A program made the position numbers and the translations under genes. This document shows positions 3,970-21,288 of a stretch of 38,904 bases of DNA, piece after piece (within the stretch, counting starts at the first letter, position 1; every line of letters begins with the position of its first letter). The stretch spans positions 1 to 38,904 of IMG/VR virus record IMGVR_UViG_3300048930_000153; one strand, 5' to 3'. This DNA is from a virus. The notes under the pieces were generated by a model, which ran no database searches, had not been told where the DNA came from, and saw only the letters and a list, made by a program, of their open reading frames with translations.

Positions 3970-4328
3970 ACCTCCCCATGCAACCCGACGAGGTTCGCGC
4001 CTTCGTCAAGCGCGAGGGCATAACGCTGCGGGAGAATGATTGGAGCGGATCGGCTGGCAGGAAGACGGACAAGAGGCGATACAAAACCTATTACGCAAGC
4101 GATGCGGAGAAGCGGCGGGCAATCTCAATCCGGCGCATGATGTGGGGTAGGAAGCAGACGAGTGGGGTTTGTGCTTGCGGTAGGCCAGCGACAGTAAGGA
4201 CCGGGGGGGCTGGGGTGTCGTTTGTGTGCGATAGGTGCCTATTGTGGGAGCGCGAATACTACGACACGAGGAGGAGGGGTAGGACTATAATGACGAGCGA
4301 GGAAAGGAAGGAGCAAGATGGGAACTAA
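3966..4328 (+). CDS. Zinc-ribbon hypothetical protein (120 aa)
   Basis: ATG 3966 has AGGAGGAAGG upstream and overlaps the previous stop. The protein is basic. A C-terminal CxC...CxxC ribbon (CACG near 71, CDRC near 90) should bind zinc, and the chain ends in an Arg-rich helix. Likely nucleic-acid binding by inference. It overlaps the next gene by 11 nt. Confidence 0.65.
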   Translation: MNLPMQPDEVRAFVKREGITLRENDWSGSAGRKTDKRRYKTYYASDAEKRRAISIRRMMWGRKQTSGVCACGRPATVRTGGAGVSFVCDRCLLWEREYYDTRRRGRTIMTSEERKEQDGN

Positions 4329-4749
4329 TTATTACCACATAACACAGGTTGGGAACGTGTGCGAGCATTGCGTCAAGGGTGAGCGCGAAGAGCGCAGGCA
4401 CATTGGGAAGTCTAGTGCGGGATGGTGCTTTTCTCTGAGAGTGTATCCAGAGGATGGGATTACAGGGTTGGATGACTGGAAGAAGGAGTGGGCGAAGGGT
4501 GGGGAGATTGTGGATGAGTACGGGGATGATTTCAATGCGGAGACCATGCGTCTAATCATTGCAGAGCGGCATGGCAGAGTGTGGAATGAGAGGGATTGGG
4601 ACCTGATGGGATACACAGATGAGGCCGATTTCCACGCCAAGAACCACAGCGAGCGAGGGCCTGGCAACTTATTGAGGCACAGGCGCGACAGGTTCTGCGT
4701 TGGGCATGGAGAGGGGACCTGGGATCTTGTGGTGGGGGAGTTTTCATGA
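4318..4749 (+). CDS. Conserved phage protein of the MGTNYY type (143 aa)
   Basis: It begins with the MGTNYY start, followed by a CEHC motif and HIGKSSAGWCFSL. I recognise this N-terminal signature from many phage proteins of unknown function. The N-terminal Cys pair with the His may bind a metal. The middle is acidic and ends before a basic RHRRDR segment. Start ATG 4318 is 6 nt after AAGGAG. No catalytic function can be assigned. Confidence 0.7.
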   Translation: MGTNYYHITQVGNVCEHCVKGEREERRHIGKSSAGWCFSLRVYPEDGITGLDDWKKEWAKGGEIVDEYGDDFNAETMRLIIAERHGRVWNERDWDLMGYTDEADFHAKNHSERGPGNLLRHRRDRFCVGHGEGTWDLVVGEFS

Positions 4750-5092: not shown

Positions 5093-5538
5093 AAAATCCC
5101 TCAACACCACATAGACGACGCAGAAAACCACAACACCACAAGTTAAGGAAACCCGACATTGACGATGGAAACCTTGACGACGTTGACGACATTGAACCGA
5201 TGGGCGAACCCGTGGACACCGCCGGCCTATCCGAGCGCGACGGTCTCTACCGTGTCCAGCGCATGAGGCATGAGCACAAGCTGGCGTTAGAGCGCGGACG
5301 AGTCCTTGACCGCAGCGCCGTGGAGCGAGCGCTGGCCGAAGGGATGGCCCAGTTGTTCGGTGCGCTGGACCGCCTCTTCTGCGCGGAGTTCCCGGCGCTT
5401 GGGAAGGGCCTCTCAGAGCGCGAACTCCGCGCCCTCGCGCGGAAACAGATCGAGGAGCTTAAGCGAAACTTGCGCGAGTCCCTATCGACCAGGCGAATGC
5501 AGTTAGAGCAACAGCGGGTAAAGGGCCAGCCGGCGTAA
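5089..5538 (+). CDS. Terminase small subunit, putative (149 aa)
   Basis: It lies directly before the large terminase, whose ATG overlaps this TAA by 1 nt. The first 20 residues are very basic (RRRRK). A short acidic stretch follows, and the C-terminal two-thirds is helical and charged with a long final coiled-coil-like helix. That fits small terminase subunits, which recognise the packaging site and recruit the motor. I chose ATG 5089 because it overlaps the stop of the 4964 ORF; an upstream TTG at 5032 is unlikely. The assignment rests mainly on position and length. Confidence 0.65.
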   Translation: MKNPSTPHRRRRKPQHHKLRKPDIDDGNLDDVDDIEPMGEPVDTAGLSERDGLYRVQRMRHEHKLALERGRVLDRSAVERALAEGMAQLFGALDRLFCAEFPALGKGLSERELRALARKQIEELKRNLRESLSTRRMQLEQQRVKGQPA

Positions 5539-7340
5539 TGGACGACGAGGCGCAAACAATCCGCGCATGGGAAAAGGCGGTTCCGCCAGACCGCGCCACC
5601 GACCCAATCTCATGGGCTGAACAACACGTCCGCCTACCTGGATCCGCACGCTCCGACCGCTTCTCGCGCAGCATCACGCCATGGACCGCTGAGGTGCTGC
5701 GCTGCATTGACGACGACGTGACTCGCCGGGTGGTGTTCGCCAAGCCGATTCAAGCTGGCGGCTCCGTGGTTGGAGACATAGCCTTGTGTTATTGGGCAGC
5801 CAACAGCAGCAGCGGAGACATTCAATGCAACTGGCAAAACGACCTCCAGGCTGAGTCGCGCTGGGTGAAACGAATCGAGAAGATCCTCAAGTCGTGCAAG
5901 CCGGTCATGGCGCGATGGCCGGACCCAAGGGACAGGACTAAGATCAATAAGGGGCAGATCATCTTCCCCCATTGCAACCTGATGGTCCAAGGCGTCCACA
6001 CCGATCGGCGCGTGGCGTCAGACAGCATCAAATACCAGATCAACGAGGAGGTCCATGACGAGGCGGGATGGCTCACAGGCAGGCTCGCCCAAGCATTCGG
6101 TCGTCTCACGGCCTATTGGGATTCAATCTCGATTGTGATTTCCAACGCAGGCCGAGAAGGAAGCGAACTTCACAAGGAGTTTATCGCCGGCACGCAGGAG
6201 CATTGGGAGGTTCCGTGCCCAAGCTGTGGGCAATTCCACGTTCTCCGCACACAGTTCGACAAGAAACGTCCGGAGCTTGGAGGCTTGCGCTACGACGCCG
6301 ATGGCTGCCGGCGGGAGGACGGAACCTACGATTACAACAAGCTTGCGCCCACAGTGCGCTATCAAATGCCGTGCGGCTATGAGATGCCGGACGATATTGC
6401 CATCCGCCGCAAGATGTCGCTTGGCGGTCGGTATGGCGAGCCGCACAACACAGGCGCAACCAAGGAGACGCGCAGTTTTACTCTTGAGGCAGTGTCGGTG
6501 GACTACATCGCATTCCTGACATTGATTCAGGAAAAGCACACGGCGATTAGGGCAATGCGTCACGGCGACCCGGAGCCGTGGTTCCGATACCTCCGCGAGC
6601 GCGAATGCCGTTTCACGTCCGACGAGGACAGGCCATCAGTGAGCGTGGTCAAGCTCACAGAGGCTCGGAAGGTACGCGGAGGCATGGAGAACCGGGCGGC
6701 ACGCTTCGGCGCATTAGACCGGCAACGCGGGTCGCTAGCCGGCGGCGAGCTTCCTCACTGGTGGGCGGTGGTCCGCGACTTCGATGGGCGCGGAAACTCC
6801 CGGCTGGTATGGGAGGGCAAGCTCCTGACCGATGAGGACGTGGTGGACATGCTGCGCCGGATGGAAGTGCCGCCCAGGTGCGTCGTAGCTGACTCTGGGG
6901 ATGACACGGTGCATGTCTATCGGTTCTGCATGGCTAACGGATACAACGCCATCAAGGGCGACTCCCAAGACCTATTCGCCCATCCTGACGGTGGACGGAA
7001 GATTTACAGTCCCGAGAAACTGCTGGCCGCGATGTTAAACGCTCCGTTGTCCGGTCGGGAGATGATCGATGAACCACTGTTTTGGCACTACAGCAAGGCT
7101 GGAATCCGCGACCGGCTGCACTGGCTTAGGACATCAGGCGAGGTGGCGTGGGAGGTTCCTGACGACGTGAGCCGAGACTACCTGAACCACATGGACGCCG
7201 AGGAGCTTATTGAGCGCAAGGACCGCCTCGGTGCCATCGTCAAGGAATGGGTTCAGCGCAAGGCTCGAAACGATCTTTTCGTCTGCGAATGCTACATCGC
7301 CATGATGGCCGACATTGGAGGTTTCTTTGCCGCACGATGA
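5538..7340 (+). CDS. Terminase large subunit, GpA-like (600 aa)
   Basis: Packaging ATPase/nuclease of the lambda GpA family. It has a degenerate Walker A at residues 69-77 (KPIQAGGSV), Walker B-like YQINEEVHDE near 167-175, a CPSCG Cys pair at 227-230, and nuclease-domain aspartates in ALDRQ (about 394) and VADSGDD (about 452). A length near 600 aa is normal for the family. It pumps DNA into proheads and cuts the concatemer. GpA-type motors go mostly with cos cutting but also occur in headful phages. Confidence 0.93.
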   Translation: MDDEAQTIRAWEKAVPPDRATDPISWAEQHVRLPGSARSDRFSRSITPWTAEVLRCIDDDVTRRVVFAKPIQAGGSVVGDIALCYWAANSSSGDIQCNWQNDLQAESRWVKRIEKILKSCKPVMARWPDPRDRTKINKGQIIFPHCNLMVQGVHTDRRVASDSIKYQINEEVHDEAGWLTGRLAQAFGRLTAYWDSISIVISNAGREGSELHKEFIAGTQEHWEVPCPSCGQFHVLRTQFDKKRPELGGLRYDADGCRREDGTYDYNKLAPTVRYQMPCGYEMPDDIAIRRKMSLGGRYGEPHNTGATKETRSFTLEAVSVDYIAFLTLIQEKHTAIRAMRHGDPEPWFRYLRERECRFTSDEDRPSVSVVKLTEARKVRGGMENRAARFGALDRQRGSLAGGELPHWWAVVRDFDGRGNSRLVWEGKLLTDEDVVDMLRRMEVPPRCVVADSGDDTVHVYRFCMANGYNAIKGDSQDLFAHPDGGRKIYSPEKLLAAMLNAPLSGREMIDEPLFWHYSKAGIRDRLHWLRTSGEVAWEVPDDVSRDYLNHMDAEELIERKDRLGAIVKEWVQRKARNDLFVCECYIAMMADIGGFFAAR

Positions 7341-7563: not shown

Positions 7564-7968
7564 ATGGACAGCCATGCTGAAACCGTGGTCGTACCCACCG
7601 CGTTCAAGCGCACCATTCTTCGGGTCATTTACCAGTCCGCCGTTGCGGATTCAGTGACCTTGCAGGCTGCGCTCATGGCTGCGCTTACGGCCAAGTATGA
7701 GGCGGACGGGTCTGGCAGGGTAATGACGGCGACCTCGTTGGGCGGACACTCCATGCAGTGGTCCACCACGTCTGCAACCCGAGGCTCCACCCCGCAGCAA
7801 ATCATTGAAGCTGTCGAGGAGTTGCTAACCCTGGCTGAAGCCCTATCCGCTGCCACCCCAGCCCCAGCCAACGACGCCGCCCTTTTTGCGGCCATGCTCG
7901 TCGAGCTTGTCCCGTGCGTTGAATACCGCATGGACTTTCTGACCAGCCGAAACCAGGAGGGCCTCTGA
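7564..7968 (+). CDS. gpW-like head-tail connector, putative (134 aa)
   Basis: The position between terminase and portal matches lambda gpW. The segment MTATSLGGHS followed by a helix with IEAVEELLTLAEAL resembles the helix/beta-hairpin/helix pattern of gpW, although the protein is longer than lambda gpW (68 aa) and has an extra Ala-rich C-terminus. Such proteins stabilise packaged DNA and provide the tail attachment site. Identification is by context plus weak motif. Confidence 0.5.
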   Translation: MDSHAETVVVPTAFKRTILRVIYQSAVADSVTLQAALMAALTAKYEADGSGRVMTATSLGGHSMQWSTTSATRGSTPQQIIEAVEELLTLAEALSAATPAPANDAALFAAMLVELVPCVEYRMDFLTSRNQEGL

Positions 7969-9422
7969 TGGCTGGATACCTCGCCAACCTGTTCAGCGCC
8001 ATCCTGGGGAAATACTACTCCCCCACGCAGGACATCACCCGGTCGTATATCCGCTCGCCATTGCAGGATGTCCGTAAGGACTGGAGCGCCAGCACGCGGC
8101 AGGAGCAGGTGCGGCTCATCCGCCATTTCGAGCAGACGACCGGCATCGTCAACAGGTTGGCGGATTTGTTCGAGGCTTACACGGTTGGGGTGGGGTTGAT
8201 GACGCATCCGGCGAGCGATGATTCGGAATGGAACGACACTGCCGACGAATCCTTCGCCACATGGTCCGACAACGCCGATGTGATTTCCCGGCAGTCGTTC
8301 GGGACGATTCAAGGACTCATTGCGCGTGCGTGGTTCGTTGATGGGGAATGCTTTGTAATTAAGGACACTAAGAGCCAGAGTGGGCGCCCAAGACTGCGCC
8401 TTGTCGAGTCTCACAGGGTATGCACTCCGCCTGGATACAGCGAGGAAAACGGGGTCTATGATGGCGTTGAAATCGACGAACGCAAAAGACCGGCGGCGTA
8501 TTGGATTAAGGAGCTTTCAGCCGATGGGATGAGGTGGGAGTGGGAGCGTTACGACGCCGGGATGATTGAGCACATCTTTGAGCCTCAGCGCCCAGACCAA
8601 TACCGAGGCATCCCATTCCTGACGCCCGTCCTTCGCCACCTCCACGACCTCGACGACCTCCAGGCTTACGAGATGCTTTCGGCCAAGGGCAACTCGGAGA
8701 TTTCCAACATTCTCAAGACAGAGACCGGCGAGGCGCCAATCAGCCCATTGATGGCGAAGTTTCGTGGCAACCAAAGCGTTACAACCGGAACCGGCGCGGT
8801 CATTACCGAGGAGCGGATTGATTACGTCAGGAAGGCACTTGGCGGGCGCACGGTGGCGCTGAAACTGAACGAGAGCCTAGAGCAGCACAGGAGCGACCGG
8901 CCCGGTGCTGCGACAATGGAGTTTTGGCGGTCCATCAAGGAGGAGATTTGCACCGGAGCCGGCATCCCTTACGTACTCGTGTACCCCGGCTCCATGCAGG
9001 GGACGGTGTATCGGGGAGCCCTTGATGCCGCAGATGCTTTCTTCCGCGCTCGCTCCAGCGTCATGCAGGCTTTTGTTCGGCGCATATACGCATGGGTTAT
9101 GCGCTTTGAGGCCGCGAGCAATCCCAAGCTCCGACCTATGCCGGCGGACTGGTACAAGGTCGTTATCCATCCTCCACGCAGCGTCAAGGTGGACATCGGC
9201 TACGACAGCAAGGCGGCAATCCAAGAGATCGATGCCGGGCTTTCCACCTACGACATGATTTACGGGCCTCGTGGGTTGGACTGGCGCGAGCAGTTCACTG
9301 CGCTGCGCGAGCAACAGCTATTTGCGGAAGGAATTGGATTGCAGCTTGGACAGCAAAAGAAGGCGGAACCCGAAAAGAAAGACGAGGAAGAAGAACCCAA
9401 ACCGGAGCCCGCAAAACCATGA
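7968..9422 (+). CDS. Portal protein, lambda gpB-like (484 aa)
   Basis: It starts ATG 7968 overlapping TGA, with a strong CAGGAGG. The sequence shows the lambda-family portal features: an N-terminal RSPLQDVRKDW region, TTGIVNRLADL, a DGECFV beta strand, the ESHRV segment and C-terminal GIPYVLVYPG followed by YRGALDA. The last 20 residues are a Lys/Glu-rich tail. It forms the dodecameric vertex ring through which DNA enters. The next gene starts within its stop. Confidence 0.9.
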   Translation: MAGYLANLFSAILGKYYSPTQDITRSYIRSPLQDVRKDWSASTRQEQVRLIRHFEQTTGIVNRLADLFEAYTVGVGLMTHPASDDSEWNDTADESFATWSDNADVISRQSFGTIQGLIARAWFVDGECFVIKDTKSQSGRPRLRLVESHRVCTPPGYSEENGVYDGVEIDERKRPAAYWIKELSADGMRWEWERYDAGMIEHIFEPQRPDQYRGIPFLTPVLRHLHDLDDLQAYEMLSAKGNSEISNILKTETGEAPISPLMAKFRGNQSVTTGTGAVITEERIDYVRKALGGRTVALKLNESLEQHRSDRPGAATMEFWRSIKEEICTGAGIPYVLVYPGSMQGTVYRGALDAADAFFRARSSVMQAFVRRIYAWVMRFEAASNPKLRPMPADWYKVVIHPPRSVKVDIGYDSKAAIQEIDAGLSTYDMIYGPRGLDWREQFTALREQQLFAEGIGLQLGQQKKAEPEKKDEEEEPKPEPAKP

Positions 9423-11368
9423 GTGAGATTTCAACAATCAAACAGGAGGACGGCAGCCATGTTGTTTCCATCGAGGGATTTATCGGTGAGGACTATTTCA
9501 CTGGCGCCGGAAATACCGCCGCCGCTTTCAAGGCTGCACTCTCAAGGATTCCGCGCGATCAGGCTATCACCGTGGGCATCAATTCAGAGGGCGGCAGCAT
9601 CCAAGAGGGCCTCGGCATTTACAACGCGATCCGCGAGCGCGGCAACGTAACGACCAGAGTGGATGGCTACGCGCTGTCTATCGCGTCATTAATTGCCGTA
9701 GCTGGCGCCAAGGTAATCTCACCCAAGTCGTCCGTCTGGATGATTCACAACCCATGGACGATTACAGCCGGGGATTCCGAGGAACACCGTCGAGCCGCTG
9801 ACTCGCTGGAAGTTAACGCTGACGTGCTGGCAAGCGTCCTGTCTGAAAAGACCGGCAAGGACAAGGATGAGATCCTTGAGGCGATGGCGGGTGAAACGTG
9901 GTTCTCTGGCGAGCAGGCAGTCGAGTACGGACTCGCCGACGCAATGACAGACGAGACAACCAAGAAATCTGCGCTCGCCCGCACCTACCGACACCCAATG
10001 TCATTCGACCGCACTAAAGCGATCCTCAACACTTTCCGCGCCCCAAAGCCGGAACAACGAAAGGACACACACATTATGGATACTGAGAACAAACCCGCAC
10101 CGGCTGGGGCTGGCAATGCCCCGGAGCCGAAGGCGGAAAACATCGTGACTCGTGAACAATTCGCTGCGCTTCAGATTGAAATGCAGGCGATGAAAACCAA
10201 GGCCGAGACCGAGCGTAAGGCCCGCATCGAGGCGCGTTGCGCCACCTTGTGCGCTGAGCGCAACCTCGACCCAGCGAAGTGGACCGAGCGGGCGTTGAAA
10301 GACGAGACCGTGATGGCTGACATCGAAGCCATCAAGGTTCCCGACAAGTCGCCCGGACCATCGCGCAAGGTTGACGGTGGCGGTGAAGGCCCACTCGACG
10401 CCGCATTCGCCATCAAGGACTCTCCCAAGCGGTTCCGCTTTATGCGGGACAATTGGAGCGAGCTCCGGCAAGCCGAGGCTTCCGCGAAAGGCCGGCAGAT
10501 CATGGCCGCGAACACCGGCACGGACAGCGCGACCCTTATCGGCAGTTTCCTTGCCGCTGGCATCGTTACCGTGTTGCAGAACAAATGCGCCGCCTTGCGG
10601 GCTCTCACTCGCGACTTTGGCACCGGCCCGATGGCTCCGCGTCAGCCGGTGGTGGTAACCAAGGTTAGCGCCGGCGGAACCGCGCAAACCAACGCGACGG
10701 ACTTTGAGGATACCACTAACTTCGTTGGAACAGCTGGAGCTGTGTCCATTACTCCGTCTCAAATCACGGTCGGAGGTTACATTGACAACGCGGAACTCAA
10801 CAGCGGGTTCCGCATTGGGATGTGGACCGAGATCAAAGCCGCCGAGATGGCTGACAAACTCATGGCTGCGGTTGCCGCGATCATCACCACCGGAAACTTC
10901 ACGGCCACCCCTCACCTCTCCGCGTCGGCTTCGTTCGGAGGCGATGATATGCGGACCTTGTGGGGTATGCTGAAAAAGGCGAATCAGAAACACCTCATCC
11001 TTGATGGTGAGTATTATGCCCGATTGCTGCCGTCCACCCGTGAGGAGTTCAACGTGGCTGAGGCTTCATGGCCGGGGTGGAATGGTGTTTTCCTGAACAC
11101 CGTTTGGACTGGAGCCACGGCCAACACTGTCGGCTTCGCGTGCGATCCTCAGGCGATTGCAGTTGCCGCTGGGTTACCACTGACATCCGCGCAGTCTGGA
11201 GCCGCCGGCCTTGGTCAGTCGGTCATCACGGTTCCCGGCGTGGAACTGAGCGTCCAGCAGAATAGCTGGTTCTCCAACAAAACCCGCACCGAGTGGGTGA
11301 CTTGGGACGTGGTGTTCGGCGCCGCGCTCCTCGACGCAACCGCGGGCGTGCTCGTGAAATCCAGCTAA
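9419..11368 (+). CDS. Prohead protease-scaffold-major capsid protein fusion (649 aa)
   Basis: Residues 1-190 are a ClpP-like S14/S49-type phage protease. The catalytic triad candidates are Ser87 (YALSIAS), His110 (MIHNPW) and Asp174 (GLADAM). Residues of about 218-330 are charged and helical, like a scaffold/delta domain. Residues of about 345-649 look like an HK97-fold capsid subunit (TLIGSFLAAG, then the TDFED and GVFLNTVW regions, and an aromatic-rich end). One frame encodes all three. An internal ATG at 10076 (residue 220) with AAAGGA about 10 nt upstream could give a separate scaffold-capsid product. Self-cleavage probably frees the capsid protein. Confidence 0.85.
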   Translation: MSEISTIKQEDGSHVVSIEGFIGEDYFTGAGNTAAAFKAALSRIPRDQAITVGINSEGGSIQEGLGIYNAIRERGNVTTRVDGYALSIASLIAVAGAKVISPKSSVWMIHNPWTITAGDSEEHRRAADSLEVNADVLASVLSEKTGKDKDEILEAMAGETWFSGEQAVEYGLADAMTDETTKKSALARTYRHPMSFDRTKAILNTFRAPKPEQRKDTHIMDTENKPAPAGAGNAPEPKAENIVTREQFAALQIEMQAMKTKAETERKARIEARCATLCAERNLDPAKWTERALKDETVMADIEAIKVPDKSPGPSRKVDGGGEGPLDAAFAIKDSPKRFRFMRDNWSELRQAEASAKGRQIMAANTGTDSATLIGSFLAAGIVTVLQNKCAALRALTRDFGTGPMAPRQPVVVTKVSAGGTAQTNATDFEDTTNFVGTAGAVSITPSQITVGGYIDNAELNSGFRIGMWTEIKAAEMADKLMAAVAAIITTGNFTATPHLSASASFGGDDMRTLWGMLKKANQKHLILDGEYYARLLPSTREEFNVAEASWPGWNGVFLNTVWTGATANTVGFACDPQAIAVAAGLPLTSAQSGAAGLGQSVITVPGVELSVQQNSWFSNKTRTEWVTWDVVFGAALLDATAGVLVKSS

Positions 11369-11377
11369 CCCTGAACC

Positions 11378-11623
11378 ATGAGACCGTTCATCCTTCATGT
11401 GGACCATCCGCAGCAGCCGACGAAATCGGCTCTCGTGATGGGGCCGGAGAGTGATCCAAACAAGGTGGCGTTGGAGTATGCCAACGTGAAAGCAAGTTTC
11501 GAGCACTCATTCGGTCCAGGCTTTCTGCTGTACTTCAATGGTCGTGGTGAACCCGCGATTGCTCAAGTCAGCCGGAAGCCTGCGGTCAAAGACGAACCAA
11601 TCAAGAAAGGACAATCCAAGTGA
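11378..11623 (+). CDS. Small head-region hypothetical protein (81 aa)
   Basis: It lies directly after the capsid gene. The protein is soluble with a compact beta-like core and a basic C-terminal tail. No family recognised. The position suggests a head or head-completion accessory protein. Its TGA overlaps the GTG start of the next gene. Confidence 0.55.
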   Translation: MRPFILHVDHPQQPTKSALVMGPESDPNKVALEYANVKASFEHSFGPGFLLYFNGRGEPAIAQVSRKPAVKDEPIKKGQSK

Positions 11624-12051
11624 AATCGTTCAAACTCATCATGGCCAGCATCTTCGGGATGCTTGGCCTTAGTCTCGGTGCTTATGGTCAGAGCTACGGA
11701 TACCAGGTATTCGCGCCGACGACCATGACCGCATCGTCCACCTCAAACTACACCCACACCATCGACGTGCGTCGCCAGGCGACTGTTGCGCTTTCGTTGG
11801 CTGGCGTGAGTGGTGGAGCTGGCACTGACAACCTAACCCTTACGTTCGCGCCTTCGGTTGACGGCGTGAACTTCACCACTGCGGCTAATAGTCGCATCAC
11901 GTGGGTTGTTGCGGCGACCGGCGCCACTCCGCATGTTCATTCCACAAACATCACGGTTGGCGGATATGGATACCTGCGACTCGTGAGCGTGCAGAATGGC
12001 GTGGCGCAGACCTACGCCTATACGTTGACCGCATCAAACAAGGGTCTCTGA
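11620..12051 (+). CDS. Secreted beta-rich protein with signal peptide (143 aa)
   Basis: The GTG 11620 start overlaps the previous TGA, with AAAGGA upstream. Residues 1-23 are a clear Sec signal: Lys at 2 and 5, a hydrophobic core MASIFGMLGLSLG, and AYG before Gln at the likely cleavage site. The mature part is Thr/Ser/Ala-rich with alternating beta strands, like a phage decoration or fibre domain. A signal peptide is odd for a gene amid head proteins. The function is unknown; it could be virion-attached or exported. Confidence 0.6.
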   Translation: MKSFKLIMASIFGMLGLSLGAYGQSYGYQVFAPTTMTASSTSNYTHTIDVRRQATVALSLAGVSGGAGTDNLTLTFAPSVDGVNFTTAANSRITWVVAATGATPHVHSTNITVGGYGYLRLVSVQNGVAQTYAYTLTASNKGL

Positions 12052-12054
12052 TTC

Positions 12055-12363
12055 ATGGGCCTGGAACTCCAACTCCACGCCGCAGGGCTGGCCGAACTCA
12101 TTCGTGCGTTCGGCCAGCCATTCACGGTTGATGGCGTTGCAGGGACGTTCCGTGGCTTGTTGGATAATCCCATCGTTGGACTTTCGCACAGCGTTGAAGC
12201 CGGACAGGAACAGGACGGCGGTACGCTTTACAGCAAGAGGGAAGCATCCTTCACTCCGATTTCAGGAATGCGCGTAACCATTCGCTCACGCCACTACACA
12301 ATCGACCAAGTCACCGACGAGCAAGGCCATTGGGCTATGCAACTCATCGGGAGGAACCGATGA
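12055..12363 (+). CDS. Head-tail joining (stopper/FII-like) protein, putative (102 aa)
   Basis: It has the size and order of lambda gpFII-like head completion proteins. The pattern GVAGTFRGLLDNP in the middle and HYTIDQV...HWAMQLIGR at the end is typical of the small beta-barrel neck proteins annotated as head-tail joining. It would seal the connector and form the tail docking ring. It overlaps the next start (ATGA). Confidence 0.65.
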   Translation: MGLELQLHAAGLAELIRAFGQPFTVDGVAGTFRGLLDNPIVGLSHSVEAGQEQDGGTLYSKREASFTPISGMRVTIRSRHYTIDQVTDEQGHWAMQLIGRNR

Positions 12364-13169
12364 CTGTCGAGGTGAACATGGCCGAGCTGAATCAAGGCAT
12401 GACCAAGCTCGCACAACTCACAGGCAAGGAGCTTGTGACAATCGTGCGCGAGCAGGCGCGACTGTTCTGCTTCGATGCCATGAAGTCCACGCCGCCATTT
12501 GTTGGGAAACCTTATGCGCCATTGACCGAGGGATTCCCAGCGCAGCGCAAGGCGGGTGAGATGGCGGTTGAGAGGGACATTGGAACTAAGGCAATGCAGC
12601 CGCTAACAAGGCTGGATATTTTCAAACCCAATCAAGAGAAAGGCGACGACCTTGGCGTTTACCTTAGCCGGCTAATTCGCAGAAATCGCACGCTCAAAGC
12701 TGAGGAGATTCTTAGGAAGAACAAAATCCGAACGCTTGGAATCCTTAAGAGGGCGGACGCATCACTGCACGAGCGAATCAGGGACAATAGGGGTAGGGTT
12801 CAACGAAACATTGGCTATCTAGTCGTCAGCGAGCCGAGTGTTAGGTCTCTAATTCGCAAGAAAAAGAAGAACGTTGGACTAGCTAAGGGCGGTTGGGTGT
12901 TTTCGGTTAAGGCTGTATCCACAAAGCTTGGCGTTCGCCATCGAGTTCCAGGCTGGCTTTCTAGGGCTCACTCGTCGTCAAGTGGCATCTATTTCGAGTC
13001 CGGCGCTGGAGATGGCGTAACCATCACAGTTGGAAACGTGGTTCCGAAAGCTCAAGGAATGCGAAGCATGATTGAGCAGGAAGCCTTGCGTAACCGCGTC
13101 CGAAACCTACCACTTCAAATCCGGGGCGTTGAACGAGCCCTTGCGAGAAAGGCACGGCAATGGCGGTGA
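12360..13169 (+). CDS. HK97 gp10-like / minor tail Z-like neck protein (269 aa)
   Basis: The ATG 12360 start overlaps TGA and follows GGGAGGA. It sits at the position of the tail-completion protein after the stopper. The protein is Arg/Lys-rich, with an N-terminal helical region including VREQARLFCFDAM and STPPFVG typical of gp10/Z-like proteins, then a long basic middle and a beta-rich end. At 269 aa it is longer than HK97 gp10 (about 120 aa), nearer lambda Z. It probably links neck and tail tube. Confidence 0.6.
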   Translation: MTVEVNMAELNQGMTKLAQLTGKELVTIVREQARLFCFDAMKSTPPFVGKPYAPLTEGFPAQRKAGEMAVERDIGTKAMQPLTRLDIFKPNQEKGDDLGVYLSRLIRRNRTLKAEEILRKNKIRTLGILKRADASLHERIRDNRGRVQRNIGYLVVSEPSVRSLIRKKKKNVGLAKGGWVFSVKAVSTKLGVRHRVPGWLSRAHSSSSGIYFESGAGDGVTITVGNVVPKAQGMRSMIEQEALRNRVRNLPLQIRGVERALARKARQWR

Positions 13170-13681
13170 CAATCGCATCCACCAGCGAGGTTAAAATCAC
13201 CCGAGGAAACGGGTCGCTCTACACCGGACGCATCACACTTCGACCGCCGTCTCGCGTGGTTGCTGACGCGCAATGGTTCGTTGCGTTGCCAGTCCACGTT
13301 CCCGTGTTCGATGGTGTTTATTCGTTCACGTTGGAGGCTGGCCTTTTCTGGCTTCACGCCCCAAGCACCGAGAGGGTGCCTGTGGTGGTTCCTGCGACTG
13401 GCGGACCATACACCATCCAAGAGCTAATCGAAGACCCTGCCGCACCGCCAGAGCCCGACCCGGAGGCTCCTGTCACTGCGCATCTCGAGTTCGCCACCGT
13501 CACGGCAATGCTTTTCGCGGACTCTGACACTTATCTCACTGCGATGTGCAAAAACTACGAGGTGGACGACGGAATCATAACGACATGGCTCAAGGTCGGA
13601 ATCACTGGCCTAACCGACAACGGAGACAGCGTGCGCCAAACCAACGACGGATCGTGGTTGATTCGAACATTCCCGAGCTAA
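13160..13681 (+). CDS. Beta-sandwich adsorption-module protein A (173 aa)
   Basis: The N-terminal half follows an Ig/carboxypeptidase-regulatory-like pattern: YSFTLEAG, then LHAPSTERVPVVVPATGGPYTI. The next gene repeats this pattern, so the two are paralogues. A Pro/Glu linker (APPEPDPEAP) separates it from a C-terminal beta domain with GDSVRQTNDGSWLI. It is probably a small virion or fibre protein; no enzymatic motif. The start overlaps the previous gene by 10 nt. Confidence 0.6.
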   Translation: MAVTIASTSEVKITRGNGSLYTGRITLRPPSRVVADAQWFVALPVHVPVFDGVYSFTLEAGLFWLHAPSTERVPVVVPATGGPYTIQELIEDPAAPPEPDPEAPVTAHLEFATVTAMLFADSDTYLTAMCKNYEVDDGIITTWLKVGITGLTDNGDSVRQTNDGSWLIRTFPS

Positions 13682-13682
13682 C

Positions 13683-14138
13683 ATGCCAACTGTAACCGGC
13701 CATCTCATTTCAGCCGACGGGACAGGACTACTTACCGCAGTCAAGTTCACCACCATTTCCGCGCCAGTTGAGTCCAGTGGCTCAATGGTTAGCGTCACCG
13801 AGAAACGGACGAACACTGATTCAAGCGGAGACTTCTCGCTTACACTGGAGGCTGGTGACTACACTGTTGAATGGTACAACGGCGAGAAGCTGACCGAGGT
13901 GACGATTGCGGTGCCGGCAGGTGGCGGGCCGTACACTCTGACGAATATCACAGAAGGATCGCTGACCTACACACGCACGGTCGATCCACAATACATCCTC
14001 AAGTCCGACCCTGGCCAATCCTTCCGCGTGAACAACGGACACCTCGAAATCTACAATTACACCACTGAGGAATGGAACCCAATCGTCAACACTGGCGCTG
14101 CCGGTTCCGAGCGCATCGGATTGGGAGGAGCGAGCTAA
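13683..14138 (+). CDS. Beta-sandwich adsorption-module protein B (151 aa)
   Basis: This is a paralogue of the 13160 protein in the segment DFSLTLEAGDYTVEW followed by VPAGGGPYTLTNI. It adds an N-terminal strand pair GHLISADGTGL typical of prealbumin-like/CarboxypepD_reg folds. The C-terminus has a DPQYILKSDPG element. It probably forms fibre or neck-appendage subunits, by inference. Confidence 0.6.
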   Translation: MPTVTGHLISADGTGLLTAVKFTTISAPVESSGSMVSVTEKRTNTDSSGDFSLTLEAGDYTVEWYNGEKLTEVTIAVPAGGGPYTLTNITEGSLTYTRTVDPQYILKSDPGQSFRVNNGHLEIYNYTTEEWNPIVNTGAAGSERIGLGGAS

Positions 14139-14141
14139 TTT

Positions 14142-14513
14142 ATGGCTGACGAAATCACGGTAACTTTCAGGTTCGAAGCGTCGAAGGGTGGCGTTGAAAT
14201 GGACTCGCGCTCCATCCGCACCGTGTTCGACATGACAGGAGTAGACATTGGTGGACCAGTCACGCAGTCGGTTGGAACATCGCATGAGGCCCTTGCGGCG
14301 CCAGCTGACGTTGCATTCCCTGCCCATGTAGCAATTCAGAACCTCGACGCGACCAACTACGTAGAAGTATTTCAAGACTCAAGCGGCACACTCCAAACAA
14401 ACCGACTTCGCCCCGGTGATCCTCCGTGTTTTCTCGTGAACACTGGCGCGGTCCCCTACGTGAAAGCCAACACCGCCGCCTGCCTAATCCAATTTTGGAT
14501 CGTTGAGCAATGA
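14142..14513 (+). CDS. Beta-rich hypothetical virion protein (123 aa)
   Basis: ATG 14142 follows GGGAGGAGCG. The protein is beta-rich with a DATNYVEVFQD segment and a RLRPGDPPCFLVN turn, resembling small phage capsid/fibre decoration proteins. No family recognised. Its stop overlaps the signal-peptide-bearing spike gene, so the two are coupled. Confidence 0.55.
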   Translation: MADEITVTFRFEASKGGVEMDSRSIRTVFDMTGVDIGGPVTQSVGTSHEALAAPADVAFPAHVAIQNLDATNYVEVFQDSSGTLQTNRLRPGDPPCFLVNTGAVPYVKANTAACLIQFWIVEQ

Positions 14514-17500
14514 GAATAACTATTGCCATCCTGTTCCTGTTTTGCCTTTCTTCCTACGGGCAAGCTCCCGTCCGCACAGTGGACACGGTTGCCGACTTGA
14601 TTGCGCTCAATCCGCAGCCGTACGCCGTTGGCGGGAAACTGACCGTGACCACTCTTGGATATTTCGCGCCAGGCGATGGCGGTGGCCAGGAGTTCCGAGC
14701 AGTTGAATCAGGTTCAACAACCAACCTCGGCACCGTGTTTGCATCTGGTCGCGCCGGCTGGCAATGGCACGCCGTCAACTGGGATGGGGACGTGCGGAAG
14801 TTTGGGGCGAAAGCAGACGGAACAACTGACGATTCAGCATCCATACAGGCCGCGGTTGACTACGCAAGGACGAAGGATGGAATCACCTATTTGCCAGCAG
14901 GGGCCACCGGCAGGAAGGCGACATACCTAGTTGCGTCTCCAATTCGCCTTTACACACAAAGCCAACTACTCGGAGGCGGCAGGGACACCACAATTATCAG
15001 GCTCGCGCCGGGGTCCAACCTAGGTACGAACCGAGCGGTTATTCAAAGCGACCTGTTCGAGAACAACGTCCAAACATGGATAGCCGACATCGACAATCCG
15101 GTGCCTGGTGTCATAGCGCGGGCTCGGATTGAGAATCTCACGGTAGATGGTTCGCGAGAGACTGGATCTCTCTCAACCGGCATCGCGCTAAATGGCGGGC
15201 CGTTCATCCTCAATAAAGTATCTGTCATCAACACTGGATCGCATGGGATCTGGACGTATAGCGGAACAAATGGAGTCAGTTCAACGTCTGGCGATATTTT
15301 CGACGACTGGTGGAGAATGCACGAATCCTCTTTCACCGACATCGAGATCGCGTCCCCCGGTGGGCATGGGTGGCTCTATGAGGGTCCCAATGATTCATGG
15401 CTGCACGACATCAAGATAAAAACCCCTAGGTGGGCCGGGTTCTACCAATCGGGTCGAGGCAACGGTGGATCGATCCAAATCGGTGCCATGCACGCATACA
15501 CGGGCGGCGGCGGAGTTGACCACTGGGACGGATTGCCAATACCCGACGAGGAATATCCCGACTCCACAATGTTTCTATTCGCGAGCAGCGCGCACATTGA
15601 CTTTCTGTACGTTGACCATCACACGGGGCTATACGGGGCAATCTTTCGAGCCAACTCCATGCTTGTTGATCGTGTTCACATCCTTCATCCGAACCAGTTT
15701 CAGGACAGGGAATCGGTTGGGCTTTGGATCGCTGGCCAATCCATATCAATCAATAGCATCAATTACGCAACAAGGTCGTGGCAGTGGGCGCCGAATACCG
15801 CTTACACAACAGGCACCCGCAGAACGTGGAATGGAAACGCATACACAGTTACCAGTCCAGGAACGAGCGGAACAGAAGGGCCGTCAGGATACCGAGACGT
15901 TCCGACGGACGGCACTGTGACGTGGGAATACGCATCGCCAGCCCCACCAAGAGTTGCCGTGTTAATCAGCGGCAACCGCACCCAAATCGGCAAATCTTAC
16001 ATTTCACATTTTGGCGACTACGCAGGCCAGCCGATTTCTTTCTGGGTCAATCCGACGCTGTACGGAGCGCAGATTGACGCGTACACGCTCAGCGTAGCTG
16101 GTGGTCGAGCTGTCGGCGGGTTGTTTCGAGGCGAAGGTCTTGACATTAAAATCCATGCCGACTTGATGCGGGTTGGCGCCGTCATCGAAGAATCAACGAG
16201 CAGTTCCTACGAGGTTATCGCCAACAAGGCTGATGACGTGGCGATGCTCAATATTGGAACATCCACGCACAACAGGGCAAACAAGTTCTCCGTGAGGCAT
16301 AACAGATCGAACTCCTCTGCCGATCTTGCTAGAACAACCTACCACGGCACCAGGATTCCAAGGTTTCGCAACAGCCTAGAATTATTGGATAGCGACTATC
16401 GCAACTCGTCGATCTATGATGCTGGAGATGTTCTGACGAACATTGCTTATACCGCCAGGTCTCCATGGGCTGCGACAACAGTATACTCACTTAACGATGT
16501 CAGGACTAATTCTCTCGGCTCGATTTACCGCGCTACAATTGCCGGAACATCATCGTCGTCTGAACCTACCCATACAACCGGAACGGCCTCGGATGGCTCG
16601 GTGACGTGGAAATGGGTTGGGGATGAATACGCTGCTCTGCAATTAACCGGAGGCGTGCAGTCCGATGGGTGGTACACTGGACAATGGGTATGGTTCAACG
16701 ACAGGCAGATCAGGAAGGTAGTCGATTACGACGGACAATCCAGAATCGCAAGATTCGATGTCCCTTATTGGAGGCAGCCGAATGAAACCAACACATTTTG
16801 GATTGAGCCGGTCAAGCGCGTCCACACCGGGGCGCTGCAAGCGCTGCCGACGCCAATAGACTGGAACGCTTCAACCGCTGTCGCTGTTGGCGATATACTG
16901 CAAACCACCAACGCATCGCCATTCCGCTGGTACAAGGTATTGGTGAGTGGGACAACTGGCGGCTCTGCTCCGACATCCGAATCGGCATCTGTAGCCAACG
17001 GCACATCTACCCTGAAGTTCCTCGGGCAGCTCAATCGGCTATTCAAGCTCGCAGAAACGGCATCTGCCATTGATTCATTCTACGTTGGGAATCGAACCCT
17101 TAATCTGACATTTGGCACCGGAATCGGGCAAAGTAGGGTCATTACCCATTACGACGGCGAAACGCGCATCGGAAGCGGAGTGGATAACTGGTTTGTCACG
17201 CCTGGCACCGCATCATACTTCATCAGCTCAAGTTTTTACGGAAACCCAGGGCACAACAATGCGGGGGTCGTGTCCGGAAGGACGATGTCCTTCCTATCGG
17301 ATACCGCGTTCACTGACGCCACCTTGACAGCCGTTGACGCGGATGTGCGGTCGCATTATGTGGTATCACTTGGAGGCAACCTCACCGTTCCGTCTCCAGA
17401 CCCGGCCCCACAGGGCTCGCAACTCATTTTCCAATTCCGGCAGTCGGGCTCCGGTGGATACAGCATCACGTGGCCGGCCGATTACGTGACGAGTTACAGC

Positions 17501-17593
17501 AATGACGGGAACGATGTTGGAACACATGCCACGGTGGGGTTCATTTTTAACGGAAAAACCTGGCAGGAAACGTCAGTAACTCCATGGCAATGA
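14510..17593 (+). CDS. Tail spike: pectate-lyase fold with carbohydrate-binding repeats (1027 aa)
   Basis: Residues 1-18 are a Sec-like signal (IAILFLFCLSSYG, Gln at +1). Residues of about 95-125 carry the pectate-lyase-superfamily entry motif FGAKADGTTDDSASIQAAV, opening a right-handed beta-helix that runs to about 420. Three modules of about 55 aa at roughly 420-478, 650-706 and 782-840 share the W-x-x-x-T-x-Y/V ... G-T-S/T ... P-T/G ... D-G-T-V-T-W pattern of small carbohydrate-binding domains in phage fibres. A beta domain ends the chain. It likely binds or cuts host surface polysaccharide; catalytic residues cannot be assigned by eye. Confidence 0.8.
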   Translation: MRITIAILFLFCLSSYGQAPVRTVDTVADLIALNPQPYAVGGKLTVTTLGYFAPGDGGGQEFRAVESGSTTNLGTVFASGRAGWQWHAVNWDGDVRKFGAKADGTTDDSASIQAAVDYARTKDGITYLPAGATGRKATYLVASPIRLYTQSQLLGGGRDTTIIRLAPGSNLGTNRAVIQSDLFENNVQTWIADIDNPVPGVIARARIENLTVDGSRETGSLSTGIALNGGPFILNKVSVINTGSHGIWTYSGTNGVSSTSGDIFDDWWRMHESSFTDIEIASPGGHGWLYEGPNDSWLHDIKIKTPRWAGFYQSGRGNGGSIQIGAMHAYTGGGGVDHWDGLPIPDEEYPDSTMFLFASSAHIDFLYVDHHTGLYGAIFRANSMLVDRVHILHPNQFQDRESVGLWIAGQSISINSINYATRSWQWAPNTAYTTGTRRTWNGNAYTVTSPGTSGTEGPSGYRDVPTDGTVTWEYASPAPPRVAVLISGNRTQIGKSYISHFGDYAGQPISFWVNPTLYGAQIDAYTLSVAGGRAVGGLFRGEGLDIKIHADLMRVGAVIEESTSSSYEVIANKADDVAMLNIGTSTHNRANKFSVRHNRSNSSADLARTTYHGTRIPRFRNSLELLDSDYRNSSIYDAGDVLTNIAYTARSPWAATTVYSLNDVRTNSLGSIYRATIAGTSSSSEPTHTTGTASDGSVTWKWVGDEYAALQLTGGVQSDGWYTGQWVWFNDRQIRKVVDYDGQSRIARFDVPYWRQPNETNTFWIEPVKRVHTGALQALPTPIDWNASTAVAVGDILQTTNASPFRWYKVLVSGTTGGSAPTSESASVANGTSTLKFLGQLNRLFKLAETASAIDSFYVGNRTLNLTFGTGIGQSRVITHYDGETRIGSGVDNWFVTPGTASYFISSSFYGNPGHNNAGVVSGRTMSFLSDTAFTDATLTAVDADVRSHYVVSLGGNLTVPSPDPAPQGSQLIFQFRQSGSGGYSITWPADYVTSYSNDGNDVGTHATVGFIFNGKTWQETSVTPWQ

Positions 17594-19818
17594 AACGACA
17601 CTTCCCCATCATATTCGGCCTCGCGTGTGCGTGCTTCCTGATTGCGGCGGCGTTTGTTCGGTCGCAGCCAGCGACTCCGCCGACGCCGCTGGTCTCTGCG
17701 GTGATGACGGACACCAACGGGGCAGTGATTCCCGCGGATTTCTTCATCATCAACTCAAACCTAATCAACGATGTCATCCGCCCAGGTGCCGGAGTGACTG
17801 GTGCGGTTGTGACGGTGTTTGGCAGGGATGGCGCGGTTGTGGCAACGCTTGGAGATTACGAGGCAGACTTGGTTTCGTGGGCGGGTGCTGCGCCAACGAA
17901 CTACACGCCCGGGTCAGCGACGCTTGAGGGACACATCCTTGGGATTGACAATGCGCTTGGAAGTGTGAGCGGAGCGATTTCTGACGGCGACAAAGGCGAC
18001 ATCACCGTTAGCGGATCGGGGGCAACGTGGACAATCGACAACGGGGTCGTACAAAACGAGAACCTTGGCGGCGACATTACAACCGCTGGCAAGGCGATCC
18101 TCGACGACGCGGACAATGCGGCTCAACGAACCACCCTGGGGCTTGGCACGGCAGCCGTGGAGGCTTCCAGCTCGTTCGCTGCGGCTTCCCATGCTCACGC
18201 AGGTGAGGACATCACCAGCGGCACTGTAGCTGACGCACGCATAGCCTCGACCATTGCGCGGGATTCTGAGGTGACATCGGCAATCGACACGCATCAAGCG
18301 CTCAACCTCTACCAGCGGACAAACTCCGCGCTGACGCAAATCTCAGACATTACCGGAAACGCAACCGGGGATCTCCTCTATTACACCGGCGGATCGTGGG
18401 CGAGGATTGCACGGGGAAGCGATGGTCAGGTTCTAAAATCTTCCTCAACCACCGTGCTATGGGGTGAGGACCAGACGGGCGGCGGAGGCGTGAGTGATGG
18501 AGATAAGGGCGACATCACGGTTTCTTCGTCCGGGGCAACGTGGACCGTGGACAATGGCGTCATCTCCACAAACAAATGGGCCGACGCCGCGCATGAGTTT
18601 GTTTCAACTCATCTCACTGAGGCCGAGGCGTCGATTCTATATCAACAGACGAATGCGGCGCTGACGTCCCTCTCGGCAAATCCTCAACTGTATCAGGCGA
18701 CAAACGCCAGCCTAACGGCGCTCGCAGCCGATCCTCAAATCTATCAGGCGACCAATGCAACGCTCACGTCACTCAGCGCGCTAGGTAACGGCGTCATAGC
18801 CAAAACCGGCGCTGGCACAGTGGCCAATCGCACCATCACTGGCGACTCCGAAATCGTAGTCAGCAACGGCGATGGAGTGAGCGGTAACCCAACCCTGTCC
18901 ATCGCGGCCAGCATCACAAGGGACGCAGAAGCCGCAGCAGCCTACGCAGCAATTTCCCACGCCCACGCAGCCTCCGACATTACCAGCGGCACAATAGCCA
19001 CAGCCCGCCTCGGTTCTGGTACAGCAGACAGCACGACATTCCTGCGCGGTGACGGTTCGTGGCAGACTCCTGCGGGCGGAGGAGGCTCTTGGGACGGATC
19101 TCCGATTGCGAGTGGGACGATTACCAATCTGTATGTTAAAACCATAAATGGAGAAACATACGCATCGGTGATAAAGGGAAGCCTTTGGGCAGATGGCGTT
19201 GACGGAGGAGAGAACACCACGACATTTTTTAGGCCGTGGCAGGCAAGCCTTTTATCGAGCGGAACTGCTAACACGCCAGCATCCTATTCGTCCGATTACG
19301 TACATGGAGCACAGCTTTGGAAGTCTTCGGCATCCGCAAACTCTGGTGTTGGTCAATTCCTGAATCATCAGCGTGTAATGCGCGGAGGCGAAAAAGGGAT
19401 CATAATTATCACGCTTCACCAGACCAACAACATGGTTGGATATTTTGGGTTTCATGACAACGCAACGACTGGCGTTGGAAATGAAGCGGTAAGGATAACA
19501 ATTTCAGGAGGTGAGCTTTACGGTGAATGCGGAGACGCTGCTTCATTTACTGCAACAGCAACCGAGTTCATTCCTGAGTTGAATGTTACATACTGGCTTG
19601 AGGCTGAATTAACAACCACCAGCCTAGCTACGTTTAGGGTCTATACCATTTCGGACGGTGCTCTAGTTTGGTCTGACACAATCACTGCAAATATACCAAT
19701 AAACGTGGCTAGAACAACTCAATCAAGGTACGTGTATTTCCACACCGGAACCACGGCGCAGGACATAGCAACGGTTGATGCGGTTGGTGTCATAGAAACA
19801 AAAGTTAGAATCCAATGA
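17590..19818 (+). CDS. Repetitive tail fibre with signal peptide (742 aa)
   Basis: I prefer ATG 17590 (ATGA overlap); ATG 17584 adds two residues. The N-terminus KRHFPIIFGLACACFLIAAA is a signal/anchor, with Gln after VRS at the probable cleavage point. Two copies of a GDKGDITVS..GATW motif (coding 17982-18047 and 18496-18561) and tandem LYQATNAxLTxL units form fibrous repeats. The last 230 residues look like a lectin-type jelly roll (GVGQFLNHQRVM, YWLEAELTT). It probably binds receptors next to the spike. Confidence 0.75.
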   Translation: MKRHFPIIFGLACACFLIAAAFVRSQPATPPTPLVSAVMTDTNGAVIPADFFIINSNLINDVIRPGAGVTGAVVTVFGRDGAVVATLGDYEADLVSWAGAAPTNYTPGSATLEGHILGIDNALGSVSGAISDGDKGDITVSGSGATWTIDNGVVQNENLGGDITTAGKAILDDADNAAQRTTLGLGTAAVEASSSFAAASHAHAGEDITSGTVADARIASTIARDSEVTSAIDTHQALNLYQRTNSALTQISDITGNATGDLLYYTGGSWARIARGSDGQVLKSSSTTVLWGEDQTGGGGVSDGDKGDITVSSSGATWTVDNGVISTNKWADAAHEFVSTHLTEAEASILYQQTNAALTSLSANPQLYQATNASLTALAADPQIYQATNATLTSLSALGNGVIAKTGAGTVANRTITGDSEIVVSNGDGVSGNPTLSIAASITRDAEAAAAYAAISHAHAASDITSGTIATARLGSGTADSTTFLRGDGSWQTPAGGGGSWDGSPIASGTITNLYVKTINGETYASVIKGSLWADGVDGGENTTTFFRPWQASLLSSGTANTPASYSSDYVHGAQLWKSSASANSGVGQFLNHQRVMRGGEKGIIIITLHQTNNMVGYFGFHDNATTGVGNEAVRITISGGELYGECGDAASFTATATEFIPELNVTYWLEAELTTTSLATFRVYTISDGALVWSDTITANIPINVARTTQSRYVYFHTGTTAQDIATVDAVGVIETKVRIQ

Positions 19819-20234
19819 AGACAATTTTATTTTTCTTGATGTCGGCGGCTTGTTGTATTGGGCAGACCTACGATGTCCTTCTATACAAGGACACACCTAA
19901 CCCTGACGGCATCCCCGGCAACTGGCCAGCACGGGTGGAAATCTCAACCGGCAGGCCATCTCCATGGTTTCAAGTCACCAAGGCCCAGCTTGAAACCTAC
20001 AAAGCCAACAACGCAGCAGCCTACGAGCAATGGGAGGCACAGCGAGAAGCCGACAAACTCGCCGCCGAAACTGCCGAACGCACTCGGCGCGAGACATTGA
20101 TTGCCCAAGCAATCAGCGACTTTCAAATGGCGTTGGATAACTGGGCAAACCTAACCGCCGCCCAACAGAAAGCGGTTCTCCAACGCTGCGTGCAAGTTCT
20201 CATTGCCCTACTCAAAGACGAACTCAAACCATGA
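19815..20234 (+). CDS. Small secreted fibre-associated protein (139 aa)
   Basis: The N-terminus KTILFFLMSAACCIG with Gln at +1 is a signal peptide. The Cys pair makes a lipoprotein possible, but the lipobox is imperfect. The mature part has a beta segment (YDVLLYKD), then a long charged helix (about 55-115) and a LTAAQQKAVLQRCVQ segment often found at the C-terminus of small phage fibre-accessory proteins. Coupled to both neighbours by ATGA overlaps. Confidence 0.6.
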   Translation: MKTILFFLMSAACCIGQTYDVLLYKDTPNPDGIPGNWPARVEISTGRPSPWFQVTKAQLETYKANNAAAYEQWEAQREADKLAAETAERTRRETLIAQAISDFQMALDNWANLTAAQQKAVLQRCVQVLIALLKDELKP

Positions 20235-20683
20235 AACACCTCCTCGCCATCCTCCTTCTCCTGCCGTTCGCTGCGTTCGCGCAGGAAGACCCCGAATCAA
20301 CTCCCATCGTCGATATCAACAAGGGCATCAAGCTCGTTTGGGACGCCGGCCTCGGCTGGGAAGGTCACAACATCCTCAACCACCGCATCAGCATCGGCAC
20401 CGAGAGCGGAGTCTATACCGATGGCCGACTCGTGGATGGGCGGGTGCCTACGTCCACTGAGCCAGTGATTGTGATGGTTGAGGCGCCGGGGACCTATTAC
20501 GTTGCGGTGTCAGCGATCAACGATCTCGGCCTTGAGTCGGCTCCAAGCAACGAGATCAAGGTTACCGTGCGGTCCATTGCGACGCCCAGCGCCCCGGTGA
20601 TCCGGCTTGGCGAGCAGTTTGAGGTTTTGGCGGTTACGGAAACGGTAACGACGACGCGGATCATCAAGGAAGTGAAACCCTGA
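20231..20683 (+). CDS. Secreted fibronectin-III-like protein (150 aa)
   Basis: The signal peptide is KHLLAILLLLPFAAFA followed by Gln. The mature part is one Fn3-like domain: LVWDAG, then a TYYVAVSAIND strand and ESAPSNEIKVTV, the usual Fn3 end. A Thr-rich tail follows. Fn3 domains in phages decorate tails or heads and bind sugars or proteins. The start overlaps the previous stop. Confidence 0.65.
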   Translation: MKHLLAILLLLPFAAFAQEDPESTPIVDINKGIKLVWDAGLGWEGHNILNHRISIGTESGVYTDGRLVDGRVPTSTEPVIVMVEAPGTYYVAVSAINDLGLESAPSNEIKVTVRSIATPSAPVIRLGEQFEVLAVTETVTTTRIIKEVKP

Positions 20684-20694
20684 CGAGGGATGTT

Positions 20695-21105
20695 GTGATA
20701 TGCCCCACCCAAGTAATGAATGACAAAAAGCCATCGGCAAACTGGGAATCCTTGTTTCAGGTTTTGTTCAAAGTATTCCTGATGACATATCCATTCATGA
20801 TTGCCGGTGGAGTGTGGGTAACCCAAAGCATCAACAAGCATGAATCGTCAATTCGTCAGTTGGAAACTTGGAAATCAGAAGGACACATCCAGGCGGCGAG
20901 CATCCTTCGCGCTGAGATTTTGCGCGATGTTAGCGTTGATGCACGCCGCCAATCCGATGAGAATGGATCTCGTATTGAGAGTCTGCGGACCACTCTAAGC
21001 GCAACAACCTCTGAGCTTGCGACGTTTCGGGCGCTGACGGAGCACAAACTTGGAGAGTTGGCGAGCAGTCAAAAGAAGATGCTAGAGCTATTGGAAAGGA
21101 AATAA
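20695..21105 (+). CDS. Membrane-anchored coiled-coil protein, holin-accessory candidate (136 aa)
   Basis: GTG 20695 lies 4 nt after GAGGGA; ATG 20716 is an alternative start. One transmembrane helix (FLMTYPFMIAGGVWVTQSI) is followed by about 80 residues of heptad-rich coiled coil ending in KKMLELLERK. It stands directly before a two-TM holin candidate, so a lysis role (holin partner, spanin-like) is likely but unproven. Confidence 0.55.
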   Translation: MICPTQVMNDKKPSANWESLFQVLFKVFLMTYPFMIAGGVWVTQSINKHESSIRQLETWKSEGHIQAASILRAEILRDVSVDARRQSDENGSRIESLRTTLSATTSELATFRALTEHKLGELASSQKKMLELLERK

Positions 21106-21288
21106 ATGGAGCCTGAACCAAAAAGCGAGAGTAAGGTCTTAGGCGTTTCTGTTCGTGGCTGGATTGCGTCAATCATCATCGTTACCGTCTGTGCTATGTC
21201 TGTGATGCGGATTGACATTGCAGAGCCTCTCTATGGTTTAGCTATGGCTGCGATGGGGTGGTATTTCGGGCAGAAGGAGAAGTCGTAA
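21106..21288 (+). CDS. Holin-like protein, two TM helices (60 aa)
   Basis: It has a charged N-terminus, a first helix GWIASIIIVTVCAMSV, a short turn (RIDI), a second helix PLYGLAMAAMGWYFG and a basic tail QKEKS. The size and two-helix layout are those of small class II holins, and the GWYFGQK ending is common among them. It would permeabilise the inner membrane at lysis. It sits in the late operon, between adsorption and tail genes. Confidence 0.65.
   Translation: MEPEPKSESKVLGVSVRGWIASIIIVTVCAMSVMRIDIAEPLYGLAMAAMGWYFGQKEKS

Follow-up and report, generated by a model that had tools for sequence, protein, structure and literature searches.

The window analysed here is the whole of the 38,904-base virus record IMGVR_UViG_3300048930_000153, whose genes lie almost all on the plus strand. 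Five of its plus-strand genes, named below by their first base, open with leaders resembling Sec-type signal peptides (SPs). The first, 11620 (11620..12051), has a signal at residues 1-23 (MKSFKLIMASIFGMLGLSLGAYG-QSYG, the hyphen marking the predicted cleavage site) and a mature part modelled as a jelly-roll-like beta-sandwich. It is followed by 14510 (14510..17593; signal 1-17, MRITIAILFLFCLSSYG-QAPV), in which a neck and a pectate-lyase domain (PF12708, E=2e-16) come after the signal, and by 17590 (17590..19818; signal 1-25, MKRHFPIIFGLACACFLIAAAFVRS-QPAT), a long repetitive protein called fibre-like from the character of its sequence. The last two are 19815 (19815..20234; signal 1-16, MKTILFFLMSAACCIG-QTYD), whose own sequence is charged and probably helical, and 20231 (20231..20683; signal 1-17, MKHLLAILLLLPFAAFA-QEDP), with an FN3/PKD-like domain (weak PKD match). 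All five have small residues at -3 and -1 (AYG-Q, SYG-Q, VRS-Q, CIG-Q and AFA-Q). An earlier note on this DNA had described a charged start, a hydrophobic core and a small-residue site before Gln in these genes, and all of these features are present as described.

The signals were located with a rule written for this analysis, requiring a positively charged n-region, an uncharged hydrophobic core of 10 residues and small residues at -3 and -1, and applied to 58 chosen genes of the window. Only the five genes above were positive, and cleavage before Gln was allowed in 5/5. When the residues of these 58 proteins were shuffled 2000 times, no shuffled proteome exceeded three SP-like genes, or one whose allowed site was followed by Gln, compared to the observed 5 and 5; Gln makes up 3.6% of the window proteome. 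Several of the five proteins have more than one acceptable cleavage site. The weakest is VRS-Q of 17590, with Arg at -2, where an upstream AAA-F is also allowed.

The gene calls in the window are mechanical open reading frames (ORFs), so that hydrophobic N-termini might have been created by wrong start codons, or the pattern might be due to chance. The start codons of all five genes, however, overlap the upstream stop as RTGA (GTGA at 11620; ATGA at 14510, 17590, 19815 and 20231), the start of 17590 being the second ATG in an ORF that opens at 17584. The signals therefore lie within correctly started, translationally coupled genes. On the grounds of the shuffle control and these overlaps, chance and wrong starts were rejected, and an artefact of this kind, which the SP conservation among homologues described below also opposes, is exceedingly improbable.

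A second contig, IMGVR_UViG_3300048587_000046 (L009/L010), has the cassette from 13683 to 21288 in common with the window, with 67-99% protein identity where genes match. Three of the SP genes have L010 counterparts, and both the signal and the +1 Gln are kept in 3/3. The leaders have accumulated more amino acid changes between window and L010 (41%, 8% and 24%) than the corresponding mature parts (15%, 3% and 5%), and their charge and hydrophobic core are preserved despite this faster drift. A leader that diverges faster yet keeps its physical character is what would be expected of a leader that is cleaved. The awkward site of 17590, with its Arg and its alternatives, would also be explained if the leaders were uncleaved membrane anchors or hydrophobic docking segments, the proteins staying on the inner membrane or using the segment in the particle. 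This is unlikely, as genes unrelated to one another have small -3/-1 residues followed by Gln, and in every window/L010 pair the +1 Gln has outlasted the drift. Furthermore, the AlphaFold 2 (AF2) model of 11620 (predicted local distance difference test score, pLDDT, 76) is of low confidence in the leader and contains a compact beta-sandwich from residue 26. Outside the cassette, the early genes (window 3527-4749) are 88-95% identical in L009/L010 and the terminase and portal only 22-24%, a pattern suggestive of a cassette swap, with adsorption/lysis and early genes nearly identical despite a diverged terminase and portal. In the same contig a signal-like stretch (VRQILPVLFLLLPMVGKGA-SDFT) lies inside a LamG-domain ORF (L009:12207-13295), which looks like two genes fused or overlapping in frame.

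Homologues of 11620, defined by similarity of the mature part and not by the SP, were found in L003, L032, L069/L070, L071 (two copies), L072, L140, L188, L208, L210, L216 and L222. Counting the window there are 13, and an SP is present in 13/13 at about 23-37% identity; candidates in L215 and L221, initially chosen by position and SP, are left out of this count. In the homologue contigs the gene sits shortly after the protease-capsid ORF. The earlier note had allowed that homologues might lack the hydrophobic segment if the true start lay downstream; the family has kept its SP throughout, and the RTGA-fixed starts disfavour a downstream start. Other SP-bearing proteins, fibre-like or enzymatic, are encoded nearby in L070 (three), L119, L032, L003, L210, L215, L221 and L222, while L188 and L204 encode SP-bearing GDSL hydrolases and L071 an SP protein without an assigned family. 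No SP gene was seen in some relatives that have post-capsid sequence, e.g. L213, and the trait is thus common in relatives, not universal. Judged by their sequences, the five leaders are real and conserved Sec-type signals on genes within the structural region, and the pattern has been conserved across a clade of Verrucomicrobiota siphophages and is not the quirk of a single contig.

Several attempts to place individual proteins were given up. For the fold of 11620, beta-sandwich matches were tied (the chlamydial Pgp3 C-terminus, PBSX XepA, CBM6 and viral jelly rolls) and no family is claimed. The model of 20231 (pLDDT 33) was unusable. The idea that the N-terminal domain of the SP fibres is a homologue of the lambda Stf N-terminus found no support. 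In both L215:10934-12002 and L223:10004-11171 an SP fibre is followed by a small SP protein (LRA-Q) and a lipoprotein-like gene, and these may serve in lysis. The relative of 20231 at L222:3957-4544, which is fn3 by Pfam and has an SP with a possible +1 Gln, lies directly after the terminase gene and not near holin-like genes.

The relatives also bear on the host. A scan of genome contigs with the portal alignment gave no match, and a second genome-contig scan matched a contig of a Verrucomicrobia subdivision 3 metagenome-assembled genome (MAG). In genome G447 a prophage with 54% terminase identity to the window is joined to an ordinary Verrucomicrobiota chromosome. A complete-looking prophage with an integrase and chromosomal flanks is found in G460, also Verrucomicrobiota, where an 11620 homologue (SFA-Q) and a GDSL-type SP protein (VVA-Q) come directly after the capsid gene. 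Since relatives are prophages in Verrucomicrobiota chromosomes, the likely host of the window phage is best inferred to be one of the Verrucomicrobiota, not of the Bacteroidota. Spacer-like DNA matches were weak, the best short one covering 30 bases at 93%, and were not used as a host link.

The earlier note had placed the +1 Gln in the frame of the Bacteroidota Q-rule, in which Gln directly follows the signal peptidase I site. This rule has been reported for Bacteroidetes secretomes, without mention of Verrucomicrobia (Bochtler 2018, PMC5837995), and a host secretome is counted as following it at a Q-value above about 48%. Unanimous in the window, Gln is allowed at +1 in 19/35 SPs of a largely non-redundant phage set vs 23/108 host SPs sampled from G447, G001 and G460 (Fisher p = 0.0003, in which independence is overstated, as the phage proteins are partly homologous). 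These phage leaders are thus enriched in Gln at this position. The host samples, scored by a crude any-site rule, reach 21% (G447), 26% (G001) and 11% (G460), and an E. coli sample 4/18 (22%) by the same rule. By this measure the sampled putative hosts do not look like Q-rule organisms. PF05096 (glutaminyl cyclase) was found in 6/59 genomes of the phylum, marginally in G001 and not in G447.

A Bacteroidota host, with a phage simply following the Q-rule of that host, would agree with the 5/5 of the window, as Bacteroidetes Q-values average 71% (PMC5837995). It is nevertheless very unlikely, given the terminase identity to the prophage of G447 and the further relatives in the subdivision 3 MAG contig and the G460 chromosome. 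The strict rule was therefore not retained as the main frame, the relatives being in Verrucomicrobiota and the sampled hosts showing no high Q by the crude rule. It fits only partly: the position of Gln straight after the signal peptidase I site is the same, whereas the rule is a property of whole secretomes in Bacteroidetes and in the wider phage SP set here roughly half of the leaders lack Gln.

The window also contains, by PHROG matches, genes for a helicase, methylase, terminase, portal and head protease, with recombination and single-stranded DNA-binding (SSB) protein genes further downstream. The terminase large subunit (5538..7340, +; PHROG 15, E=1e-33), the portal protein (7968..9422, +; PHROG 21, E=7e-56) and a ClpP-type head protease lie in one operon, as in tailed phages. 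The head maturation protease and the probable major capsid protein are encoded by a single ORF (9419..11368, +), of which PHROG 94 (E=1e-58) covers residues 9-307 only; the remainder is probably the capsid protein, from its position and its similarity to gp10-gp11 of phage P8625. Such a long protease and probable capsid ORF is also found in relatives, e.g. L003, L032 and L069. Between it and 11620 lies a gene for a small conserved protein of 81 amino acids (11378..11623, +); L032 and L069 have a gene of equal size at this position.

The SP-less fibre-like protein at 13683..14138 (+) resembles the mature N-terminal domain of SP fibres of relatives (BLASTP E about 0.005-0.009), a suggestive similarity for which hhalign probabilities were low, and it was not accepted as a homologue. 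Directly upstream of the spike gene 14510 is a conserved small SP-less protein (14142..14513, +), 99% identical in L010 and found at 60 loci in viral contigs; its homologues vary in position, lying before the protease gene in L006-L008 and among connector/tail genes elsewhere. On the other side of the cassette, the SP protein 20231 is 93% identical in L010, where signal and Gln are kept. Beside it are a membrane-associated coiled-coil protein (20695..21105, +; 98.5% identical in L009) with a hydrophobic segment near its N-terminus, suggesting a lysis or holin-like role, and a membrane protein of 60 amino acids (21106..21288, +; 67% identical in L009, and 48% in L070 beside the SP cassette there), which may be a holin. 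Of the window proteins compared with Pfam or PHROGs, none could be recognised as an endolysin.

From the signals, starts, conservation, gene order and domains observed, a course of events may be proposed. The host Sec translocase would export the precursors encoded by the five genes, signal peptidase I would cut off the leader, in most cases directly ahead of a Gln, and the exposed Gln could cyclise to pyroglutamate. After processing, the set would consist of the pectate-lyase spike, the long fibre and three further proteins (a small beta-sandwich, an FN3-like and a small helical one), at work in the periplasm, on the surface of the cell or outside it. We consider it probable that the five proteins are exported by host Sec and act outside the cytoplasm, a confidence that pertains to these two steps and not to the final location. 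Export was proposed in the earlier note and is the natural reading of conserved Sec-type signals with an enriched +1 Gln; that the products end up on virions is only one possibility.

The same note had treated all five as virion proteins of the adsorption or head region. Only the pectate lyase 14510 and the fibre-like 17590 look adsorption-type, the rest being unproven as such: 11620 is a small beta-sandwich in its model, 20231 is FN3-like and 19815 has no assigned function. Compared to L010, conservation extends over the first 118 residues of the spike and about 500 residues of the fibre, with the rest of the spike and the tip of the fibre replaced. A conserved N-terminus with a replaced C-terminus is the usual pattern of receptor-binding proteins. 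In L131, a Verrucomicrobiota prophage with different head genes, the C-terminus of an SP protein is that of a tail fibre (PHROG 11393, E=3e-15) and is 37% identical to the tail fibre of Enterobacter phage Mulvp2. This prophage has three SP genes in a row (L131:16780-19511) before a holin-like gene of 62 amino acids, two of them without assigned function.

We narrowly favour, at a little under an even chance, that spike and fibre join finished particles at or after lysis over the view that they are free secreted proteins. A wider proposal is put forward more tentatively: that the clade exports spike, fibre and the capsid-gene-linked beta-sandwich protein via Sec and that particle assembly ends outside the cytoplasm, with the SP in the place of an anchor and the +1 Gln capping the N-termini.

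Several observations weigh against the explanation proposed here, the first of them against simple attachment to the virion. Residues 319-570 of the spike of Pseudomonas phage VSW-3 are homologous to 14510 (27% identity, E=4e-17), and the two have the neck and pectate-lyase region in common. In VSW-3, however, this region is preceded by 318 residues including a T7-type virion anchor (PF03906), whereas 14510 enters it right after a 17-residue signal peptide; PF03906 was not found in 14510, where another type of anchor is possible. No fibre family among PHROGs, Pfam, PDB sequences or phage records matches 17590, and 11620, 19815 and 20231 match no known virion family. In the wider phage SP set Gln occurs at only about half its frequency in the window. 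Finally, P8625, an isolate infecting a verrucomicrobial strain (PMC4642752), resembles the window distantly in its terminase, portal, protease and capsid genes, but its structural genes are all without SP by the same rule.

The proteins may instead be exported and never become parts of the virion, serving as accessory enzymes or binders that loosen the cell's own polysaccharide, cover receptors on cells or debris, or affect the outer membrane around the time of lysis. This has a substantial chance of being correct, if one short of even. It would suit the carbohydrate-active or binding-like domains (the pectate lyase, the GDSL hydrolases of relatives, the beta-sandwich and FN3-like folds), a spike lacking the virion anchor of its VSW-3 homologue, and the small holin-like membrane genes that adjoin the SP genes in the window, L070 and L131. 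The tail operon of lambda likewise encodes an SP-bearing protein, Lom, although this is a single annotated outer-membrane protein and the window has five different SP proteins including spike and fibre. It is opposed by the conserved N-termini and replaced C-termini of spike and fibre, typical of virion-bound receptor-binding proteins, by the translational coupling of the SP genes within the structural operon, and by the SP fibre of L131, whose C-terminus is common to annotated tail fibres.

Under the same SP rule, the positives were limited to Lom, Bor and a spanin in lambda and to one spanin in HK97, with none in 11b or P8625; no structural gene of 11b, HK97, P8625 or B40-8 carries an SP. 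In Nixviridae phages of Porphyromonas gingivalis, five Q-rule SP genes of unknown function have been described (Matrishin 2023, PMC10367356), and Q-rule SPs in phages are thus already known. Those genes resemble the present ones in exposing an N-terminal Gln, but they are unknowns with a Bacteroidetes host, whereas here a spike and a fibre-like protein are encoded within a structural operon of kin of Verrucomicrobiota prophages. In the literature searched, no description was found of SPs on tail fibres or virion proteins, or of SPs conserved across a clade on spike and fibre genes. Phage-encoded exported proteins are known as a kind, and what is new here is their placement within the structural module.

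Tailed phages are taught to be fully assembled in the cytoplasm. If the export proposed here is true, this clade either finishes its particles outside the cytoplasm or uses adsorption proteins as secreted tools during infection. Either outcome would change annotation, in which SPs on phage fibres are otherwise dismissed as errors.

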